From: a virus | DNA length: 21,702 nt | Strand: one strand, 5' to 3' | IMG/VR virus record: IMGVR_UViG_3300032356_000151 | Location: 1-21,702 of that record | Part shown: positions 1 through 21,702 of the stretch, piece after piece | Layout of the letters: each line of letters begins with the position of its first letter | How positions within the stretch are numbered: the stretch's first letter is position 1 | Translations under genes and position numbers: made by a program | Notes under the pieces: model-generated | The model's input: the letters and a program-made list of their open reading frames with translations, nothing else | Told to the model about the DNA's origin: nothing | The model's database searches: none

Positions 1-454
1 GCGTGGCACCCGTGCACGTTGGCGGGGTCCGCCGGAATCAGCCGCGGCTGGTTTCCCACTCGTGCGTGGCACCCGTGCACGATGCCGTGGCTTGAGGGAA
101 TCAGCCGCGGCTGGTTTCCCACTCGTGCGTGGCACCCGTGCACGATGCCGTGGCTTGAGGGAATCAGCCGCGGCTGGTTTCCCACTCGTGTGTGTCACTC
201 GTGCAAGCTGGCGGGTCCGGTGGGAATCTGCCGCGGCTGGTTTCCCACTCGTGTGTGGCACCCGTGCACGTTGGCGGGGTCCGCCGGAATCAGCCGCGGC
301 TGTTTTCCCACTCGTGCGTGGCACCCGTGCACGATGCCGTGGCTTGAGGGAATCAGCCGCGGCTGGTTTCCCACGCGTGTGTGGCACGCGTGCAATCCGC
401 CGGGGCTCGAGGGAATCTCTCGGGAGCGGTTTCCCGCGCGTGTGGCTCACGCGG
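1..454. repeat. 63-bp-period tandem palindromic repeat array downstream of hsdS
   Basis: Seven consecutive units of exactly 63 bp (1-63, 64-126, 127-189, 190-252, 253-315, 316-378, 379-441) are followed by a 13-bp remnant that ends at the hsdS stop codon. Each unit starts with G(C/T)GTG(G/T)CAC and ends in TTTCCCAC-type sequence. Each holds a 12-bp palindrome, CAGCCGCGGCTG, nested inside GGGAA...TTTCCC. The first half varies in four types: A (units 1, 5), B (units 2, 3, 6), C (unit 4) and D (unit 7), giving the order A-B-B-C-A-B-D, which implies past block duplication. There are no unique spacers, so this is not CRISPR. The period is a multiple of three, so long frames stay open by chance. 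The array reaches the left edge and may continue. It is probably non-coding, a minisatellite or hairpin array at the 3' end of the hsd operon. Confidence 0.93.
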
Positions 455-1387
455 TCAGACGATATCCGATCCGTCAGGGGGAGGAGGGTCTGGCCGCAGC
501 CGTGGCGCCACCTCGCGCACATCCACCTTGCCGGTCACCACGTCGGCGAAGAGCCGCTCGCGGTACTCGCGCAGCAGTTCGATTTCCCGGCGGCCGGCGG
601 CGATGGCGGCCTCAAGCTTAATGGTTATGGCGTCGAGGCGGTCCACCACGGCGGTTTTCCTGGGCGCCGCCCGCATGGCTTTTCCTCTTTGGCGGGCGCG
701 ACTCTTTCTGCTGACGGTTCGTTGGATAACCACCTGCCGGTACTCCTCGAGCAGGCTAATCAGTTTTTCCATGGCGCGAATCGAGCGCCGGATCCGCAGG
801 TCGATGTAATCGAGGCAACGGACGATGGCGGTTTGTTCGTGGAGCGGAGGGAGAGGGATCGGGAATATTTTGAGCTTTGCGTGGGATAGACCCGGGATGG
901 TGCTTCCGTAAGCGAACGCCGCCAGTGTAGGCTGTGACACAGCCAGGACATGGTACAGATATTCATTCGCTGCCACAGGGTGAGGCAGAAGAATCCTACA
1001 ACCCGTGCCTGCGCACGCTGCGACCCGCAAGAGGCCTAACTTACCAAAGGGGGTCCCTGCGGTGGATATGACGATGCTGCCAGCAGGAGCTAGAGTTGTA
1101 CTACAAGCGTTATATGCTTCCTGCGTAATGCGTCGCGCGCTATTGTCAATGTACCTGCTTTTCAGCTTGCCCAGGTCGTCTGGCGTGATCCATACGATGT
1201 GGCCATCCCAATACTCCGGCCTGCGGGTTGAAGGCGTCGCCCCGGTGAGAATGTGCGCGACCGAACCCAGTCGCCTTAACTCCCAGTGCTCCGGCACCTT
1301 TCCCAACCACGGGACGCCAGATTCTCTGTAGGACGGGTAGGGTTGAAGGAGGGGGAGCATGCAGTCATGTCTCTCGCGCATGATCAC
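455..1387 (-). CDS. hsdS: Type I restriction-modification specificity subunit, single-TRD form
   Basis: This is the DNA-recognition subunit of a type I restriction-modification complex (310 aa; the family usually has about 400-460). Residues 17-40 carry the opening signature (SGVPWLGKVPEHW), and residues 40-175 form one target-recognition domain. Residues 176-225 are the central conserved helix (IPLPPLHEQTAIV, then LLEEYRQVVIQ). Residues 226-246 are a basic linker. Residues 247-292 are the C-terminal conserved helix (REIELLREYRERL, ADVVTGKVDVR). The second target-recognition domain expected between the two helices is absent. The start is GTG at 1387, overlapping the hsdM stop as GTGA, which indicates translational coupling. 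The protein could act as a homodimer of half-subunits, as known for some truncated HsdS proteins, or be a deletion remnant. Family assignment is secure; activity is inferred. Confidence 0.9.
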   Translation of the reverse strand: MIMRERHDCMLPLLQPYPSYRESGVPWLGKVPEHWELRRLGSVAHILTGATPSTRRPEYWDGHIVWITPDDLGKLKSRYIDNSARRITQEAYNACSTTLAPAGSIVISTAGTPFGKLGLLRVAACAGTGCRILLPHPVAANEYLYHVLAVSQPTLAAFAYGSTIPGLSHAKLKIFPIPLPPLHEQTAIVRCLDYIDLRIRRSIRAMEKLISLLEEYRQVVIQRTVSRKSRARQRGKAMRAAPRKTAVVDRLDAITIKLEAAIAAGRREIELLREYRERLFADVVTGKVDVREVAPRLRPDPPPPDGSDIV

Positions 1388-3462
1388 GCTGAACCTCCCA
1401 GTAACTCCCTCAACGACTCGTCAGCCTCCTTCGCGGCCACCAGAATGTCGCTGCGTATTTCGTCCAGCGAGCGCAGGGCCTTGGGCGTGTAGAAGTACTG
1501 GTTGAAATTAATTTCATAGCCCACCTTGACGCTTGCGGGGTCGTACCATGCATCCGGCGCGTAAGGCAGCACCTCGCGGCGCAGGAAGGTCTCGACGGCC
1601 GTGCGTTGGTCATCGGGTCCGGGCAGGTAACCGGGCTCGTGGCAGGCGGGAGACTCGAGGAAGGGGATCTGCTCGCTATCGCGCAGGTCCGGGTCCGGCT
1701 CGTACTCCACAACACGCGGCCCGTCCTGTATGCTTGCCTCGAAAAGGGAGAGTTGGGAGGATGTGGTGCCGTCTTTGCCGCGGATGGTGACCTCGAACAG
1801 GCCGCGCAACGGATCGGGCGCGGTGCCGCGCCTGTGAATCCTCTTGATGACCGGCGGTCCGTCCTCTGCGCGCTCGCCCTCTTCCCGAAGACTCCTGATC
1901 TGCCCGGGGGTATAGGCCCGCCCGGGGTCGATGCCCTTCAGGCGCAGAGGGCGTTCCACTGTCACCCTCCAGTAGCCGAACGCCGCATTGGGGAGAATCT
2001 TTGAGCACCCGGTCTCCTCGAATCTGAGGAAGGTCTCCACGATGCGGCGGATGTCCTCTTCCGACAGCTCCCGGTTCTTCTTGCCCAGGTTCTTGCGCAG
2101 GGGCGTGTACCACTGCGTGGCGTCGATGAGCTGCACGCGGCCCTTGCGGTGCTCAGGCTTCCTGTTGGTGAGTAGCCAGACGTAGGTGGCGATATCGGTG
2201 TTGTAGAACATGTTGAACGGCAGGGCCACGATCGCCTCCAGCCAGTCGTTCTCGATGATCCAGCGGCGAATATTGCTCTCGCCCAGGCCGGCGACCCCCC
2301 TAAACAGCGACGAACCGCTGTGCAGCTCGGCGATGCGGCTGCCGAGCGGGGTGCCGTGCTTCATCTTGGAGAGCATGTTGGCTAAGAAAAGCATCTGTCC
2401 GTCGCTCGTGGGTGGGATGAGAGAGAGTTTCTCTCCCCGGTGCTGCACAATGAAGCGCGGGTCCCGGACGCCGTTCTTGCCGCCCATGCGCGCGAGATCA
2501 GCTTCCCAGCTCCGGCCGTACGGCGGATTGGAGAGCATGAAGTCGAACTCGCGGCCCGGGAAGGCGTCGTTAGAAAGCGTTGATTGCCCTGGGCCTCCGA
2601 CGATGTTGCCGATGGCGTCCCCTTCGCCCTTAAGCAGCAAGTCCGCTTTGCAGATGGCGCAGGTTTCGGGGTTGATCTCCTGACCGAAAAGGTGCACAGA
2701 GAGTTGTTTGCCACGTTGGCTCGCAAGAGCCAGTAGGGTTTCCTCGGCGACAGTGAGCATCCCGCCTGTGCCGCAAGCGCCGTCGTAAAGAAGGTAGGTG
2801 CCGTCGGTGATGTGGTCAGCGATCGGTTCGAAGATGAGCCGGGCCATGAGCCGCACGGCGTCCCGTGGTGTCCAGTACTCGCCGGTTTCCTTGATGTCTT
2901 CCTCGCTAAAGCGGCGCACCAGCGCCTCAAATATGGTGCCCATGGCGTGGTTGTCGAGGCCCGGCAGGCGCACGCTGCCTTCGCTGTTGAGCACAGGATA
3001 TGGGCTCAGGTTGATCGAGGGGTCAAGGAACTTTTCGATGAGTCCGTCCAGCGCGCCAGCTTTGGCCAGCCGCGGGATATGGGTGCGGAACCCGAGGCTG
3101 TCTATGATCTCCTGGACGTTGGGGGAGAAACCGTCCAGGTACGCCGTAAAGTCGTTCTCCAGACCCTGGCGGTTGGCGCTGGCCCCGAGGTCACGCAGGG
3201 TGAATTCCGAAGTGTTGTAGAACGCCTGTCCGGCGGCCTTGCGCAGGGCAGCGTCCTGATCCACGATGCCCGCTTTGTCAAGCCTAGCCTTCATCGCGAG
3301 CACCTCCTGCTTGGTGGGCTCCAGCACCGCGTCGAGCCGGCGGATGACGGCCATCGGGAGAATGACGTCGCGGTACTTGGTGCGTACGTAGAGGTCTTTC
3401 AGCACCTCGTCCGCAATGCCGCTAATGAAGTTCACGATCCATGTGAGTTGTCCGTTTTCCAT
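1384..3462 (-). CDS. hsdM: Type I restriction-modification DNA adenine methyltransferase subunit
   Basis: HsdM (692 aa) transfers methyl groups from S-adenosylmethionine to adenine N6 at the sequence chosen by HsdS. The helical N-terminal region (about 1-160) is followed by the methylase core. That core has GEYWTPRD (194-201), the AdoMet-binding motif I DGACGTGGM (227-235), EINPETCAICKADLLLKG (262-279) and the catalytic motif IV NPPYG (312-316). The C-terminal part contains KVGYEINFNQYFY, common in longer HsdM proteins. It is longer than the classical ~500 aa form but all key motifs are intact. The ATG at 3462 follows a GGGG stretch with ordinary spacing. It heads a two-gene operon with hsdS. 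No hsdR endonuclease gene is visible in the window, so the pair may act as a methylase only or have hsdR beyond the left edge. Confidence 0.96.
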   Translation of the reverse strand: MENGQLTWIVNFISGIADEVLKDLYVRTKYRDVILPMAVIRRLDAVLEPTKQEVLAMKARLDKAGIVDQDAALRKAAGQAFYNTSEFTLRDLGASANRQGLENDFTAYLDGFSPNVQEIIDSLGFRTHIPRLAKAGALDGLIEKFLDPSINLSPYPVLNSEGSVRLPGLDNHAMGTIFEALVRRFSEEDIKETGEYWTPRDAVRLMARLIFEPIADHITDGTYLLYDGACGTGGMLTVAEETLLALASQRGKQLSVHLFGQEINPETCAICKADLLLKGEGDAIGNIVGGPGQSTLSNDAFPGREFDFMLSNPPYGRSWEADLARMGGKNGVRDPRFIVQHRGEKLSLIPPTSDGQMLFLANMLSKMKHGTPLGSRIAELHSGSSLFRGVAGLGESNIRRWIIENDWLEAIVALPFNMFYNTDIATYVWLLTNRKPEHRKGRVQLIDATQWYTPLRKNLGKKNRELSEEDIRRIVETFLRFEETGCSKILPNAAFGYWRVTVERPLRLKGIDPGRAYTPGQIRSLREEGERAEDGPPVIKRIHRRGTAPDPLRGLFEVTIRGKDGTTSSQLSLFEASIQDGPRVVEYEPDPDLRDSEQIPFLESPACHEPGYLPGPDDQRTAVETFLRREVLPYAPDAWYDPASVKVGYEINFNQYFYTPKALRSLDEIRSDILVAAKEADESLRELLGGSA

Positions 3463-3504
3463 GCTGTGCCCCGTTGCGGCCGGCAGCGACCGTTCTGCCG
3501 GGGC

Positions 3505-3542
3505 AGTATAGCACGCCGCTTTGGCCGTTGCATTATATGCAA
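3505..3542 (-). promoter_or_regulatory. Candidate hsdM promoter with overlapping palindrome
   Basis: On the minus strand, 3513-3505 reads TGCTATACT, an extended -10 element about 40 nt before the hsdM ATG. No good -35 box lies 17 nt upstream. Just upstream, 3542-3528 reads TTGCATATAATGCAA, a 15-bp inverted repeat (TTGCAT-ATA-ATGCAA) that itself contains TATAAT. The palindrome may be an operator, or its TATAAT may be an alternative -10. The elements are visible; function is inferred. Confidence 0.45.
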
Positions 3543-3576
3543 CAGTTGAGCCGGCGCTTCTGGGTCGGGCCGGAGA

Positions 3577-3619
3577 GAAAGACGAAAAGAAGCCCCCTGC
3601 CCTTCGGTGGGCAGGGGGC
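3577..3619 (-). terminator. Intrinsic terminator after the 3627-3860 gene
   Basis: An 11-bp perfect stem (3592-3602 with 3609-3619, six-base loop) begins eight bases beyond the stop of the small gene. On the minus strand it is followed by the T-rich tail TTCTTTTCGTCTTT. It isolates hsdM from upstream transcription. Confidence 0.85.
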
Positions 3620-3626
3620 GCGGGGG

Positions 3627-3860
3627 CTAGGACTCGGTCGGGGTGATCACCCAGCGGCCGAGATCTGCATCGTACTCAACCTGTACGCCCTGCCCCGCCA
3701 TTGCGACGGGTCGGCCTCCCGGGGTTCCGGCGCACCGGCACCCTTTCCAGGGGCAGAGGCTCCGGAGCGTGTCCTCGGGAATCGGGTGGACTCCCCCGGG
3801 GTACAGGACCCGGGCCTTGGTGTTGTGATACACGTTGCCGATTGTCACCATTCCTTTCAT
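3627..3860 (-). CDS. Small protein of unknown function (77 aa), independent unit
   Basis: The function is not recognised. The ATG at 3860 is chosen over longer in-frame starts because AGGAG lies 7 nt upstream and a promoter sits at 3909-3937. The product is 77 aa with a cysteine cluster (C36, C41, C43, in LCPWKGCRCAG) that could bind a metal, and a VLYPGGV stretch. The 97-aa protein at 5022-5315 has a loosely similar VWYPDGVP stretch. The gene has its own promoter, leader hairpin and terminator, so it is a monocistronic unit between the prophage late genes and hsdM. The leader closely matches that of the 5022-5315 gene although the proteins differ. An accessory role such as anti-defence or regulation is only a guess. 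Confidence 0.75.
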   Translation of the reverse strand: MKGMVTIGNVYHNTKARVLYPGGVHPIPEDTLRSLCPWKGCRCAGTPGGRPVAMAGQGVQVEYDADLGRWVITPTES

Positions 3861-3876
3861 GTTACTCTCCTCTCTT

Positions 3877-3937
3877 GCCGGGCTCTGCCCGGCGGTGTTT
3901 TCACTATAAGTATACCATATCTCGGCGGCCGGTAAAC
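3877..3937 (-). promoter_or_regulatory. Promoter and leader hairpin of the 3627-3860 gene
   Basis: On the minus strand the -10 is TATACT (3914-3909). A TTTACC -35 lies at 3936-3931 with 16-nt spacing. The -10 is preceded by GATATGG, shared with two neighbouring promoters. The leader folds into GCCGGGC-AGA-GCCCGGC (3893-3877), immediately before the AAGAGAGGAG ribosome site. Confidence 0.75.
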
Positions 3938-3968
3938 GCCCCGCGGGCAATTTTTCTCTGCCGGGCCG

Positions 3969-3992
3969 AAAAAAACCGGTCTCCAGGACCGG
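3969..3992 (-). terminator. Intrinsic terminator downstream of the 4083-4622 gene
   Basis: On the minus strand, CCGGTC-CTGGA-GACCGG (3992-3976) is followed by seven T residues (3975-3969). This is a classical rho-independent terminator. It lies about 90 nt past the stop codon, directly upstream of the promoter of the next small gene. Confidence 0.88.
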
Positions 3993-4051
3993 GGTCAATG
4001 AGTTTGCGCGTTCTTTAGGGCCTACAGGCCCGCGTTCATGTTACCACCGAC

Positions 4052-4078
4052 CGGCCGCCCTGTCAATCAGGGCGGCCG
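4052..4078. other. Strong 3' hairpin beyond the 4083-4622 stop codon
   Basis: An 11-bp perfect inverted repeat (4052-4062 with 4068-4078, five-base loop) lies four bases past the stop. On the minus strand no T-run follows, so it may protect the 3' end. On the plus strand it is followed by CTTTTC. A smaller hairpin (GGGCC-TACA-GGCCC, 4018-4031) lies further downstream. Confidence 0.7.
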
Positions 4079-4082
4079 CTTT

Positions 4083-4622
4083 TCAGACGTCTGGACCGTC
4101 TGCCGGGCCGTGCGGGCGGCCCGACAGAACCCACAGGTAGTGGATGACAATGGCGCGCCAGAGCAGGTCCCCGGAGGCTACCGCCAGCATCCGGGGATTC
4201 GCCAGCGCCCAACCGTAGGACCGCGGAGACACCGGCAGCTCCACCCTGTCGCTCCACGGGTCGAACCCCTTGGTACCGGGCGGCCCGGCGATATACCACC
4301 GGTACGCCCAGTGCCAGTACGGGTCCCCACGGCGAAGGGCGCCCGCCATGCCCTCGGCCGGGCACCGCACCCACTGCACCACGCGCTTCCGTGTCTTCTT
4401 GCCGATATGCCAGGGGAACACCCGGAAGCGGGTTGGCAGCTCCTTGGGCTGCGGCAGCCGGTTGGCTGCCGCGAGCAGGGGCGCCTGACGGTGCAAAACC
4501 TTGGCCGCAGCCACCGCCGGGGCACCCTCGCCCGACAGGGGCATACCCCAGAAGTCCCGGATCCTGTTCCCCGGGATGCATCTGAGCGCACCCCGGGCAG
4601 ACTCCAGATTCTTGAAAGTCAT
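4083..4622 (-). CDS. Protein of unknown function (179 aa) with long structured leader
   Basis: No family is recognised. The ATG at 4622 has GGGAGG six nt upstream, a strong ribosome site. The protein is basic and rich in tryptophan, proline and glycine, with no clear membrane segment or signal peptide. A central tryptophan/tyrosine-rich part contains DPYWHWAYRWYIAG, and a basic stretch GKKTRKRVV may contact nucleic acid. The gene has its own promoter with a perfect TTGACA, a leader of about 275 nt and its own terminator. It therefore looks independently controlled rather than part of the phage late operon. Its place between two other small single-gene units and beside an RM locus is typical of phage accessory cargo. 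Any anti-restriction role would be inference. Confidence 0.75.
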   Translation of the reverse strand: MTFKNLESARGALRCIPGNRIRDFWGMPLSGEGAPAVAAAKVLHRQAPLLAAANRLPQPKELPTRFRVFPWHIGKKTRKRVVQWVRCPAEGMAGALRRGDPYWHWAYRWYIAGPPGTKGFDPWSDRVELPVSPRSYGWALANPRMLAVASGDLLWRAIVIHYLWVLSGRPHGPADGPDV

Positions 4623-4897
4623 GTTTGCCTCCCTTGTGTGTAAAGGGCCCGGCTTTCAGGCCGGGCCCTAGCGCGCTGGACCGCGTTCAGGCTTTGGCGT
4701 GCCACGCGGTCCGCCCCCTTGGGACCAGCGCCGCCCACACCGGGCCAGCGCCTCCCCCTGCCAGCGGTCGGGCCTCCATCCGCCGGGGCCTCCCGCCCGG
4801 GGGTCTGGCGGTACCTCCCCGGCTGCTGCTGGTTAGCGCCCCGGGTGACTGCAGCTCCCGGGGCCTTTGCCCAGCAGCGGCTACCTAACCGTGCCAG
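4623..4897 (-). ncRNA. Long structured 5' leader (candidate cis-regulatory RNA)
   Basis: About 275 nt separate the promoter from the start codon, with no ATG-initiated frame of note. In transcript order the 5' end contains GGTTAG (4890-4885), which can pair with CTAACC (4836-4831). It also contains GCTGCTGG (4878-4871), which can pair with CCAGCAGC (4832-4825). These two pairings cross or compete, so a pseudoknot or a switch is possible around the hairpin CCCCGGG/CCCGGGG (4863-4857, 4845-4839). Further down are a 9-bp stem (4712-4704 with 4686-4678, 17-nt loop) and a 10-bp stem (4669-4660 with 4653-4644), the latter just before the Shine-Dalgarno. No known riboswitch consensus was recognised. 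Confidence 0.6.
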
Positions 4898-4901
4898 GAG
4901 T

Positions 4902-4930
4902 AGCATACCACATATCAGGCGGCGTGTCAA
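4902..4930 (-). promoter_or_regulatory. Promoter of the 4083-4622 unit
   Basis: On the minus strand, TTGACA (4930-4925), a 17-nt spacer and TATGCT (4907-4902) form the best promoter in the window. The spacer ends in GATATGTGG, related to the ATATGG found at the same place in the two neighbouring promoters. Confidence 0.85.
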
Positions 4931-4975
4931 CATCTGTGGAGAAAATTTCCTGGGGCTGATTACGCCCCGGCACGC

Positions 4976-5016
4976 AAAAGGCGCAAAGAGGGTGCGCGGC
5001 AGTTTGCCGCGCACCC
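4976..5016 (-). terminator. Probable terminator after the 5022-5315 gene
   Basis: A 12-bp perfect stem (4990-5001 with 5005-5016, three-base loop) starts five bases past the stop codon. On the minus strand its tail is TCTTTGCGCCTTTT, a broken T-run, so termination may be partial. Confidence 0.65.
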
Positions 5017-5021
5017 TTTGC

Positions 5022-5315
5022 TTACTCTCCTGAAGATGCCGTCACCGGCGCCCAGTAGGCCAGCCAGTTGGCCGAAATCACAAACCCCCTGGATGGGAAG
5101 GTGTCCGGGCCGACGGGCATCGCCTGCCCGTCGCGGATGCAGTCCGCGACCAGCCGGAGGGCCTTCTTAACATCCACCCCGGCCTTCAGCGGAAGGTCGG
5201 CCGGCACCCCATCCGGGTACCATACCCGGGTGTCCGGGAAGATGACGTCCTCCCGGCCGGGGCCGTACCGGGCCACCAAGCCCTGCTGCTCCAAATCCTT
5301 GTACTTCGTTGCCAT
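5022..5315 (-). CDS. Small protein of unknown function (97 aa), independent unit
   Basis: Not recognised. The ATG at 5315 has a perfect AGGAGG six nt upstream. The 97-aa product is soluble-looking and without a signal peptide. Its N-terminal third (KYKDLEQQGLVARYGPG) may be helical. VWYPDGVP in the middle loosely resembles VLYPGGV in the neighbouring 77-aa protein. The gene is a single unit with its own promoter, leader hairpin and downstream hairpin. It is the first gene after the prophage late block. No clear terminator was seen between 5419 and its promoter, so late read-through may add to its expression. Confidence 0.75.
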   Translation of the reverse strand: MATKYKDLEQQGLVARYGPGREDVIFPDTRVWYPDGVPADLPLKAGVDVKKALRLVADCIRDGQAMPVGPDTFPSRGFVISANWLAYWAPVTASSGE

Positions 5316-5418: not shown

Positions 5419-6483
5419 TCAGCGCGCAACATCCGGCAGTCGGACCCAGCCCAGATGGACCACCCGCGACTCCGTGAGGTCGATGCGTCCGTGGCGATCG
5501 AACTGGGCCACACCGTAGCCGCAGGCCATGCGGTAGCCGCCCCACGGCCCGGAGCGGGCGTGATCGAGCGAGTAGGGTGGCAGGTGCGTGGCGCAGCCGA
5601 CCTCGTACAGGTAGCCGGAGCCCCCGAAGACCGGCGTCTGGGAGACCCGGTGGGTGTGGCCGGTGAAGAAAGCCCGCACCGGCAGGCGGAAGCCGAACTG
5701 ATCCGCGTACGCTTCCACCCGCTCCCGCATCCGCCGCACGGTCGCGCCCGGGGTGAGCAGCGAACGGTCGTAGTGCCCGAACACGGCGTCACCTATTTGG
5801 ATCAGCGGCGAGTCGATCCGGACAATCCCGAGGTCTGCCATCCGGTCGTACACCGTCAGCAGCCGCTGCAGCACGTACTCCTGCTCCTCGGGTCTCAGTT
5901 CCCGCGTGATGCGCTTGATCGGGCGCAACATGTGATTGGATTGACCGGAAACAACCTTGCCAAACGAGCCGGCGAGCAGCTCGAACAATCCGGCAGCGAT
6001 CGTCTCCTCCTGTGACGGGTCCGACAGGTACGTCTGATCAAACCGGCTGAACGCGTCGAAGTTCACAGCCTCGAACATGATCAGGCAGTCGGCCCCGCCC
6101 TCGCGCTCAAGCACCGCCCGGACGACATCCCAGTCCGTGAACGGCACGTGCAGATCATCAAGGAAGACGACCCGGCAGGGGAACGCAAGATCGAGGCGGG
6201 CGTTGCGGCAGACATTGCGGTAAGCGCGGCGCAGGACGTCCTGGCAGGCGCGACGCAGGCGCGCTAATTCAGACTCGAGCTGCCGCCTCTCCCGCATGCG
6301 CTGGCACCGTTCCACATAGCGCTCAATGTCCTCGCGCCGGACGACGCCGCGCAGATACTCGCTTAGACGTCCCTGGGATATGCCGCAGGCCCTGGCGGCC
6401 TCGAGCTGGGAGGCGCCACCGCGAACCAGCTCAACCGCCCTGTCCAGCCGCTCCAGATAGTCTGGCGGGACCGTCGGCGGCAT
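5419..6483 (-). CDS. HTH domain plus calcineurin-like metallophosphoesterase
   Basis: The 354-aa protein has an N-terminal helix-turn-helix-like segment (about 15-47, ASQLEAARACGISQGRLSEYL), then an arginine-rich helical linker (50-95) and a metallophosphoesterase domain. Ligand motifs appear in family order: DDLH (109-112), FE at 137-138 where GD is usual, SNH (182-184) where GNH is usual, GH (236-237) and GHTH (275-278). Most metal ligands are kept, with a conservative Asp-to-Glu change, so it is divergent but possibly active on phosphoesters, perhaps nucleic acid. The ATG at 6483 follows GGAGGGGG and lies three nt after the endolysin stop, so it is translated with the lysis genes. A role in DNA processing or late control is inferred only. 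Confidence 0.8.
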   Translation of the reverse strand: MPPTVPPDYLERLDRAVELVRGGASQLEAARACGISQGRLSEYLRGVVRREDIERYVERCQRMRERRQLESELARLRRACQDVLRRAYRNVCRNARLDLAFPCRVVFLDDLHVPFTDWDVVRAVLEREGGADCLIMFEAVNFDAFSRFDQTYLSDPSQEETIAAGLFELLAGSFGKVVSGQSNHMLRPIKRITRELRPEEQEYVLQRLLTVYDRMADLGIVRIDSPLIQIGDAVFGHYDRSLLTPGATVRRMRERVEAYADQFGFRLPVRAFFTGHTHRVSQTPVFGGSGYLYEVGCATHLPPYSLDHARSGPWGGYRMACGYGVAQFDRHGRIDLTESRVVHLGWVRLPDVAR

Positions 6484-6486
6484 CCG

Positions 6487-6888
6487 TCACCCCCTCCACT
6501 CAACGTGCGCCCGGTCCCAGCCATAGGGCGCCTCCATCCCCTCCGCCTCCGCCGCCCGTTTCAGCGCGTCAAAGAATTCCGCGCTGCTCCAGCCGTGGCT
6601 CCTGCTTACGATGTCAACGGCCTTGCCCGTCAGGTGCTTGCTCGCCAGCGTCCGCGTCACAGGCTGGCGGTCGCGGGAATGCCAGCGCCCGACGCCGTAC
6701 AACCATGCCTGCCGCGCCGGGGTGCGCCGCGCCTCGTAAACCACGGGGTCCCAGCCCGCTTTGCGTAGGCGCGTCAGGATCCGCCGCACACGCTCCGCCA
6801 CGTACGGCTCAAGGGAACCGATGTCCGTGATCCTTGGCGGCTCGGGCGGGGATTTCCCCCGGGAGCTCCGGGCCACTTTCATGGCCAC
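6487..6888 (-). CDS. Endolysin, M15-type peptidase
   Basis: This 133-aa product matches the single-domain peptidoglycan peptidases (D-Ala-D-Ala or L-Ala-D-Glu type) used as phage endolysins. The zinc site is visible as SKHLTGKAVD (83-92; His85 and Asp92) and AHVEW (127-131; Glu130 catalytic base, His128 ligand). There is no wall-binding domain or signal peptide, so it probably depends on the holin for access to the cell wall. The GTG start at 6888 is favoured because AAGG lies 7 nt upstream; the ATG two codons later is the alternative. It follows the holin-like gene by four bases. Confidence 0.9.
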   Translation of the reverse strand: MAMKVARSSRGKSPPEPPRITDIGSLEPYVAERVRRILTRLRKAGWDPVVYEARRTPARQAWLYGVGRWHSRDRQPVTRTLASKHLTGKAVDIVSRSHGWSSAEFFDALKRAAEAEGMEAPYGWDRAHVEWRG

Positions 6889-19678: not shown

Positions 19679-21702
19679 TTAGACTACGCTGCGATCCCAG
19701 GACAGCGGCTCCTCAACGGCGATGCCGTAGATGAAGCGCACCTTGTAGGTCAACGCGTCCGTCTCGAACTCGTCCTTGGTGAATAGCTCCGGCTGCTGGC
19801 GCCCCTGATAGAAGCCCACCTCGAGCGTCGGGGCGCTCGCCGGATCCGCGCAGAGATACCAGTCGTTCGGATCCGTCCAGAACGGCACCACGAGTACCTG
19901 ATAGGCGTTCCGGTGCCAGTTCGGTTCGGTTGCGTTAAAGTTAGCGGTCTGGACGAGCACCTGGCTGCTGGTCAGGCGCCATGCCGTCTCTTCCAGGTCC
20001 GGCGGCACAATCAACAGGCGCGGGATGATCGTGCCCGCATCCATCCTCTGGCCGCCGATGGTGTTCCCGAAGGTCGCGCGCTTCAGCATGTTCACCCGGC
20101 GCGCGCTCAGGGTGGCGCTCGAGAGCGGCGCGCTGCCCTGGTTGCCGCTGCCGCCTGTGGAGCCGTCCCCGCCCCGGAGCGTGCTCGAAGGATGGAACAG
20201 GGTCACGTTGTCCCCCATCGTCGGGTTGGAGGTCAGCACCCCGAACACATCCCGGTTCAGGGTCTGGCGCGCGGCGCGGCCCATGGCCACCGGGATGTTC
20301 CGAATGGCCCGAAGGTCGTCGTTTGCGATGGCCTCCAGCGTGATCGTAAACAGGCCGCCCCGCTTGCCGAGCGTGTAGCTCTCGCCCCCGTCCACCGGGT
20401 TCGCGAGCGGATGATAGGTGCCGTTCTCAGGCACCACCGGCAGCACCCCGAAGCCGCCGTATTTCACCAGGTACTGCGGCCGGAAGTCGGTCACACTGCT
20501 GATGGTGCTCGCGATCTGGCGCCACTCCTGATCGGCGTCCGGCCGGCTGAATTCGGCGATCAGGCGCCTGTGGAGCCTGTCCGCGAACACCGCCGCCCAT
20601 GTGGTCGTCAGCAGCGCCTCTACGCTGCGCTCGCTGTCGTAGCCTCCGCCGTGCGTATCCCTCAGGATCTCAATCGGCGGGGTCAGCCAGTCCTTGCCGG
20701 TCCAGCGGCAATAGGCCTCCCTGAAGCTGCGGAACGGCGGCACGCCGTCCACCGGCTGCCCGGCCAGCATCCCGTCGATCGCCGCGATCATGCGGTCGCG
20801 GGAATCTTTGGTCACCTGCACGCCCAGGCCGGTCACGCGCGCGCTCTGTGCGGCCTCGTCCAGGGCCTCCTTCACGCCCCGGATGCGCCGGTCCAGCTCG
20901 CCAGGCTCGAAGACGCGCCCGGCGAATTCGCTACGCACCAGCTCCGCCGCCTTCGCCGGCAACCGCGCCTCGGCAAGGCGCGCCTCGAGCAGCACGCCGC
21001 AGCGCTCACGCCTTGCCTCCTCCAGCAGCTGGCGCACCTCATCCGCGCCGTCAGTTTCAGCGGAGCGTCCATCGCCGCTGCTGTCCTCAGACCCGCCGGC
21101 CGCCTCCTGCGCATTCCGGGCCTCATCCAGCTCCCGCGCCAGCGCTTCCAGCGCCTCCGCAAGCGCGGGGTGCCTGGACGCCAGCTCCTCTGCCGTCAGG
21201 TTCTCCGGATCCTCCACACTCGCCTCGACCAGCTTCCAGAGAGCCGGCCGGGCTTTGATGTCCTCCATCGTCAGATTCATCTTTACCTCCCGGTATGAGG
21301 CCCACCACGGATCCTCCGCGGCGGACTCGAACAGCCGGCCGCCAGCGGCCGGCTGCACCACGATGTCCACGCTGTTTCCGGGGTCGGCGACGAGCGCCTC
21401 CACTTCCCGGATCAGCTGCCCGTTCTCGCGCACCACGCGGGGTTTGGCTGCCAGATCGATGGACACACCGATCAGCTCGCCCGCCTCGCGCGCCGCCCGC
21501 AGCACGGGCAGGTAGTGCTCGAACACGTGCAGGTCTCCCCGCACCGCGCCGTCCGCGTACCGGACATTGCGCCAAGTGCCGGCCAGGTTGCGCGGGTCGC
21601 TCCGCCCGGTCAGGTCTCCCGAGCGGTAGTGCCCGCTTCTCGCTGGCAGGCCCTCCATGATGTGGCAATCGCGCGCCAGCACCTCCTCGCGGTAGCGATT
21701 GC
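19679..21702 (-). CDS. Prohead protease-scaffold-major capsid protein fusion (5' partial)
   Basis: One uninterrupted frame reaches the right edge and continues past it. The sequence before the first possible GTG (21682) reads NRYREEVLARD, as expected inside a protease N-terminus. Counting from that GTG, residues 1-125 form the protease part, with GLPARSGH, H52/H56 in LHVFEHY, S74 in IGVSID and D106 in SVDIVVQPAAGG. Residues 135-285 are helical and charged, like a scaffold or delta domain. Residues 290-667 are an HK97-fold major capsid protein of Mu-T-like type, with TWAAVFADRLHRRLIAEFSR and QYLVKYGGFGVLPVVPENG. A strong ribosome site lies at codon 135. In other phages protease and capsid are usually separate genes. 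A small hairpin (19663-19675) follows the stop. Confidence 0.9.
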   Translation of the reverse strand, partial: NRYREEVLARDCHIMEGLPARSGHYRSGDLTGRSDPRNLAGTWRNVRYADGAVRGDLHVFEHYLPVLRAAREAGELIGVSIDLAAKPRVVRENGQLIREVEALVADPGNSVDIVVQPAAGGRLFESAAEDPWWASYREVKMNLTMEDIKARPALWKLVEASVEDPENLTAEELASRHPALAEALEALARELDEARNAQEAAGGSEDSSGDGRSAETDGADEVRQLLEEARRERCGVLLEARLAEARLPAKAAELVRSEFAGRVFEPGELDRRIRGVKEALDEAAQSARVTGLGVQVTKDSRDRMIAAIDGMLAGQPVDGVPPFRSFREAYCRWTGKDWLTPPIEILRDTHGGGYDSERSVEALLTTTWAAVFADRLHRRLIAEFSRPDADQEWRQIASTISSVTDFRPQYLVKYGGFGVLPVVPENGTYHPLANPVDGGESYTLGKRGGLFTITLEAIANDDLRAIRNIPVAMGRAARQTLNRDVFGVLTSNPTMGDNVTLFHPSSTLRGGDGSTGGSGNQGSAPLSSATLSARRVNMLKRATFGNTIGGQRMDAGTIIPRLLIVPPDLEETAWRLTSSQVLVQTANFNATEPNWHRNAYQVLVVPFWTDPNDWYLCADPASAPTLEVGFYQGRQQPELFTKDEFETDALTYKVRFIYGIAVEEPLSWDRSVV
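21278..21291 (-). promoter_or_regulatory. Internal ribosome site and start within the protease-capsid frame
   Basis: On the minus strand, GGGAGGT (21291-21285) is followed by AAAG and ATG (21280-21278), in frame at codon 135 counted from the GTG at 21682. Translation from it would give a 533-aa scaffold-capsid product (MNLTMEDIKARP...) without the protease part. The site is nearly ideal in sequence and spacing, much better than chance inside a gene. Confidence 0.8.

Follow-up and report, generated by a model that had tools for sequence, protein, structure and literature searches.

Tripartite phage genes that fuse protease, scaffold and capsid, and internal starts that yield a scaffold product, are each already known. 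In phages lambda (C/Nu3) and Mu (I/Z), an in-frame start inside the protease gene gives a scaffold product that lacks the protease, and in herpesviruses (UL26/UL26.5) a nested in-frame scaffold product is made from a nested transcript, with the capsid protein encoded separately. Among fusions, the tripartite capsid gene of Salmonella phage Gifsy-2, with its ClpP-like protease, is said to have been described by Effantin et al. in 2010. A passage of PMC8538268 cites that 2010 work for the Gifsy-2 gene. Pseudomonas phage MD8 has one gene, gp5, for protease, scaffold and capsid (PMC8508860), and the Mu-like phage PaMx73 has an internal start at Val177, with a Shine–Dalgarno (SD) sequence, inside its protease gene (PMC4378225). 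Fusion genes pose a problem of numbers, as a shell takes hundreds of capsid subunits but a much smaller number of proteases. This problem would be answered by a conserved internal start in such a gene, if used; the combination is apparently unreported, and in the open-access literature we found no report that joins a tripartite fusion with an internal start.

The gene described here lies in a window of 21,702 nt, the whole stretch of viral DNA that we analysed (IMG/VR record IMGVR_UViG_3300032356_000151). The single stop-free frame claimed in the initial annotation is borne out here; it lies on the minus strand, where its 673 codons run from 21700 down to 19679, and the contig edge leaves it open (Table 1). 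Very probably, this one frame encodes two nested proteins, a minority protease fusion and a majority scaffold–capsid protein, which would co-assemble and then be cleaved by the protease. The reading builds on three results: a frame that stays unbroken in relatives, modelled domain folds, and an internal start signal that is likewise conserved. At the contig's left end (window 1–444) a 63-bp unit is repeated in tandem about 6.6 times, next to genes for type I restriction–modification.

Table 1. Positions of the fusion gene, its parts and neighbouring features in the window
Feature	Position	Strand	Remarks
Protease–scaffold–capsid fusion frame	19679..21702	minus	5′ end missing at contig edge
Predicted gp21/assemblin-type prohead protease domain	21284..21700	minus	P0001 residues 1 to ~139; PHROG match and fold
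His24, candidate catalytic His	21629..21631	minus	Probable counterpart of the DxEHLxG His of most relatives
Ser80 (initially S74), candidate nucleophile in GVSID	21461..21463	minus	Invariant in 49/49 relatives
Asp112 (initially D106), in NSVDIVVQPAAGG	21365..21367	minus	Invariant in 49/49 relatives
Putative internal Shine–Dalgarno GGGAGGT	21285..21291	minus	−11.6 kcal/mol; kept in near relatives
Candidate internal ATG start (P0001 Met141) of scaffold–capsid product	21278..21280	minus	Boundary Met or GTG-Val in relatives
Charged helical scaffold-like (delta-domain-like) segment	20618..21280	minus	Residues 141 to ~361, predicted helices
HK97-fold major capsid domain, predicted	19682..20617	minus	Residues 362–673; PF25209 and fold
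HsdS, type I restriction–modification	455-1387	minus	Adjoins tandem repeat array
HsdM, type I restriction–modification	1384-3462	minus	Beside HsdS and tandem repeat array

The 5′ end of the gene can be read from near relatives, of which IMG/VR holds about 20 at 93–100% identity, many of them reaching further 5′. In these, the real start is a GTG (ATG in L013) lying 39 codons 5′ of the first in-frame codon of the window; its SD is GGAGG (−9.3 to −10.6 kcal/mol). This GTG overlaps the TGA of the preceding gene, in most relatives that of a 518-aa portal-like protein, and the complete fusion protein is about 712 aa long. The 667 aa initially reported were counted from an arbitrary GTG, the true start being outside the window; residue numbers used here, those of the window protein P0001, are the initial ones plus 6. 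All near relatives whose sequences cross the junction have the frame intact, and these are independent assemblies from different samples; a sequencing error hiding a stop or frameshift near 21280, which had been named as a possible refutation, is therefore ruled out for practical purposes. In two near relatives (L007 and L023), the DNA 5′ of the fusion gene bears no relation to the corresponding DNA of the others as far as the SD and start codon, a pattern suggestive of a recombination border where the gene begins.

The N-terminal domain had been called protease-like, and structure prediction upholds this. The gene's first 39 residues lie outside the window, so the domain is incomplete there; it matches PHROG 15531, head maturation protease, with an E value of 8e-8. 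An AlphaFold model of the domain from a near relative (L005; 49-row alignment, pLDDT 79) has T4 gp21 as its best match (5jbl; Foldseek E 2.7e-4; VIA-align Z 10.3, rmsd 2.9, 128 residues). Herpesvirus assemblins are the next matches, at Z 6–7.6, which alone may mean little. A sequence-profile search of the PDB with the protease gave no gp21 match, and the likeness to gp21 comes from fold comparison only. By its overall fold, then, the modelled domain appears to be of the T4 gp21 or assemblin type. The catalytic triad first proposed stands in part: its serine and aspartate (S74 and D106 in the initial numbering) are the same in 49/49 relatives, but its histidine, H52 (= H58), is probably wrong, being His in just 8/49. 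A DxEHLxGxGKD segment holds His in most relatives, and with a small alignment shift its probable counterpart here is H24, the likelier catalytic histidine of the two.

Downstream of the protease, the charged helix and HK97 capsid of the initial annotation are both recovered. The linker of about 220 residues is helical in the predicted model, at low to medium confidence, and its position and the analogy with the HK97 delta domain suggest that it is the scaffold. The C-terminal part is predicted to have the HK97 fold. Residues 362–662 match PF25209 (Phage_capsid_4) with an E value of 5.1e-47 and 161.8 bits against a gathering threshold of 27, and the scaffold–capsid model (pLDDT 73, medium confidence) resembles HK97-fold capsids and encapsulins. 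Its top Foldseek match is the D3 virion (9ous, E 3.6e-8), and its highest VIA-align score, Z 13.6, is to a phiCD508 capsid chain.

At the protease/scaffold boundary, in the same frame and exactly as annotated at the outset, the minus strand reads GGGAGGT (21291–21285), AAAG and ATG (21280–21278). This is the strongest start signal inside the frame, pairing with the anti-SD at −11.6 kcal/mol as against −8.4 for the next-best in-frame ATG, GTG or TTG. All near relatives covering the site keep it, one of them (L013) as the variant GGGAGGC. In two (L009 and L015), the four codons directly 3′ of the ATG are altered at several bases and the 18 bases 5′ of the ATG are identical. In two further relatives at 79% protein identity (L108 and L109) the junction residues differ, in L108 from YREVK-M to YEETKP-M, with one residue gained, and GAGGAG and the ATG are kept. 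These two are the nearest relatives in sequenced genomes, from bins labelled Acidobacteriota and Chloroflexota; their host is uncertain because both are on short contigs.

Codon choice by itself says little about this site. A synonymous-codon shuffle of the window gene does not make the internal SD significant (p = 0.34), because R-E-V-K can itself encode GGGAGG; the shuffle has little power, and the family-wide shift is small. Among near relatives, synonymous variation round the site is mildly reduced, at the 3rd–28th percentile depending on the interval taken. The shuffle result is what would be seen if the site were a by-product of an E/K/G-rich charged linker, purine-rich, SD-like and unused, in which R-E-V-K easily encodes GGGAGG. 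We nevertheless regard this as very improbable, on the strength of a comparison with relatives, which was used since the shuffle alone gives no significance.

Two scans yielded relatives of about 25–40% identity, among them 163 open reading frames (ORFs) in which 150 aa or more precede a capsid domain, or 113 when made non-redundant. Alignment columns were dropped as a means of locating the boundary Met, as MAFFT spreads the linker. We used instead a rule that looks at protein sequence only and takes the first Met lying 6 or more residues beyond the protease motif VDxVxxPxAGG; it applies to 56 non-redundant ORFs and misplaces the Met in two (L021 and L047). Across the 56, the mean anti-SD pairing energy is −7.31 kcal/mol for the boundary Met, and the remaining internal ATGs, 693 in all, average −2.59 kcal/mol (Mann–Whitney p 1.4e-24, not to be taken literally because the sequences are related). 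Pairing of −8 kcal/mol or stronger occurs at 39% of boundary ATGs and 1.7% of the others, and the boundary ATG is the best internal ATG in 32/56 ORFs, with about 7% expected. Weak sites, or none that is clear, are found in some relatives (L097, L158, L164 and L182).

The mean pairing profile has a single peak, made by 7-mers starting 9–16 nt 5′ of the boundary ATG; those that begin between −15 and −12 have means of −4.4 to −5.4 kcal/mol over a background of −0.6, and when the test window is moved along the gene the mean never falls below −4.2, compared with −7.0 at the site. In shape and spacing this is the profile of a putative ribosome-binding site. Pairing confined to this stretch and absent elsewhere in the linker argues strongly against a linker that is merely purine-rich. 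The residues before the boundary Met are not conserved (HQRGES, NLEKEEE, EAKEESD, NPEGNA), whereas the SD pairing is.

A second argument comes from relatives without a boundary Met. In eight such ORFs a Val stands at the matching position, which was assigned by eye; its codon is GTG in 8/8 (product of GTG fractions 2e-4), accompanied by SDs of −7.4 to −11.8; a ninth, L046, resembles them. The clearest pairs set L054 and L112 (EAIVNV, GTG) beside L041 and L047 (EAIMDV and EAIMNV, ATG). As the Val is GTG in every case, which a by-product of the linker would leave unexplained, it is the candidate start codon and not the residue that is conserved. The same observation bears on a further possibility, that the internal SD is not a start signal but a ribosome pause, giving the protease time to fold before the scaffold leaves the ribosome. 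An SD exactly at the domain boundary would suit a pause. Pausing, however, would not call for a start codon, and the correctly spaced ATG or GTG has nonetheless been retained; we consider this explanation extremely improbable. Comparison with relatives, rather than codon choice alone, thus places the candidate internal start above chance.

Conservation down to about 30% identity holds for the unbroken frame as well as for the internal site, and over that range no intact relative has protease and capsid as separate genes with the site lost, the arrangement that the initial annotation had said would count against it. The frame between protease and scaffold is open in nearly all complete relatives. 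One apparent natural split into protease and scaffold–capsid (L170) was rejected: relative to L029, it carries a 1-nt insertion (3980-3995) just after the internal ATG that breaks both products, so this broken or mis-sequenced copy is not evidence for separate genes. The same genome holds two further relatives (L171 and L173). Three short ORFs considered as separate capsid genes (L127, L142 and L186) were likewise set aside as capsid paralogues without scaffold. Similar short capsids occur beside fusions: in L080, a fusion ORF (3152-5294) is followed by a 371-aa capsid ORF (5495-6608) without protease or scaffold, and L142 shares a contig with the fusion L117.

An unbroken frame in nearly all complete relatives would also be seen if the full fusion alone were made, with a protease on every capsid subunit and the internal SD unused. 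The upstream start has a usable SD, and the MD8 paper describes one gene for three proteins, its main text making no mention of an internal start, Shine–Dalgarno or start codon (PMC8508860). Production of the fusion alone, however, would place hundreds of protease domains in each prohead and leaves unexplained the start codon and correctly spaced SD kept at the boundary in divergent relatives; we judge it improbable. A frame kept open in nearly every complete relative indicates that the fusion itself is useful, and an internal start that is also kept indicates the same of the shorter product. Two nested products, as first proposed, explain both most simply.

With two nested products, ribosomes starting at the upstream GTG, which overlaps the portal gene stop, would make the full protease–scaffold–capsid fusion, and those starting at the internal GGGAGGT-AAAG-ATG would make scaffold–capsid only, an HK97-like precursor. 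Scaffold and capsid parts are the same in both forms and would be the means by which these co-assemble; the shorter form would supply the bulk of the prohead, and the fusion, in the minority, would bring the protease inside. The protease would then cut the scaffold segment from both forms and free itself, and the shell would mature; as first proposed, a few fusion molecules per prohead may carry the protease in before cutting themselves free. What we infer in this scheme is translation from both starts and the ratio of the products, along with their co-assembly and where they are cleaved. Because the SD of the upstream start is itself fair (−9.3), the product ratio is not predictable from sequence. 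Against the two nested products we count the shuffle result, the mildness of the synonymous reduction, the relatives with weak sites and an ambiguous MD8 clade.

Fusions with other protease classes show the same pattern. In 30 fusions outside the window clade, with proteases that are ClpP-like or, for some and judging from their motifs, presumably S78-like, strong sites are enriched 125–245 residues upstream of the capsid domain: 13/61 linker ATGs reach −8 kcal/mol or stronger, compared with 1/187 ATGs inside the capsid domain. The cultured phages S1, RcSwan, LPPA33, PBb002, Pmp14 and mEp213 have a boundary ATG with a recognisable SD of varying strength. Candidate internal sites are ambiguous in the MD8-clade ClpP fusions, where the conserved ClpP motif KEETWMNG harbours the strongest internal SD, one that was not counted as a boundary start. 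We lean, with somewhat better than even confidence, towards tripartite genes of tailed phages, of any protease class (gp21-, S78- or ClpP-like), being generally two nested genes, in which competition between upstream and internal starts would set the protease dose per head and the nested start would have been kept or regained independently across fusion lineages. A conserved internal start, if used, would also mean that the precursor of the major capsid protein is concealed in records that name such a gene a single 'head maturation protease'; cultured phages of the same layout include mEp213, S1, RcSwan, Pmp14 and MD8.

Finally, the window gene can be placed among known systems. Like the Gifsy-2 gene and MD8 gp5, it lies beside a portal gene and combines protease and scaffold with an HK97-fold capsid in a single frame, with protease and capsid joined by a linker without interruption as in other tripartite fusions. 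Unlike theirs, which is ClpP-like, its protease appears gp21/assemblin-like, of a different fold class (gp21 fold at Z 10.3). The NCBIfam prohead protease/major capsid fusion families NF045541 and NF045540 have the same architecture, and the significant but partial match to them misses the protease: NF045540, the ClpP-fusion family, matches the window protein only from residue 360 on, and NF045541 scores 189.7 bits with this 5′-truncated protein, below its curated cut-off of 525. Given the gp21 fold and the NF045540 match beginning only at residue 360, the window fusion is therefore a sister variant of the Gifsy-2/MD8 kind and not a member of the same family.

The internal start, by contrast, recalls lambda C/Nu3, Mu I/Z and PaMx73, which have an in-frame start in the protease region; that of the window gene is putative, conserved and, with its SD, at the protease/scaffold boundary. 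In those phages the capsid gene is separate, whereas the internal product here would be scaffold plus capsid. That product would resemble HK97 gp5, in which the scaffold (delta domain) is fused to the capsid and removed by the protease; the HK97 protease, gp4, differs in having its own gene and entering by its own interaction. Herpesvirus UL26/UL26.5 shares the predicted protease fold class and a nested in-frame scaffold product, but UL26.5 comes from a nested transcript and the capsid protein is separate. The window gene would thus link, within one gene, the nested scaffold of lambda and Mu with the scaffold–capsid fusion of HK97.
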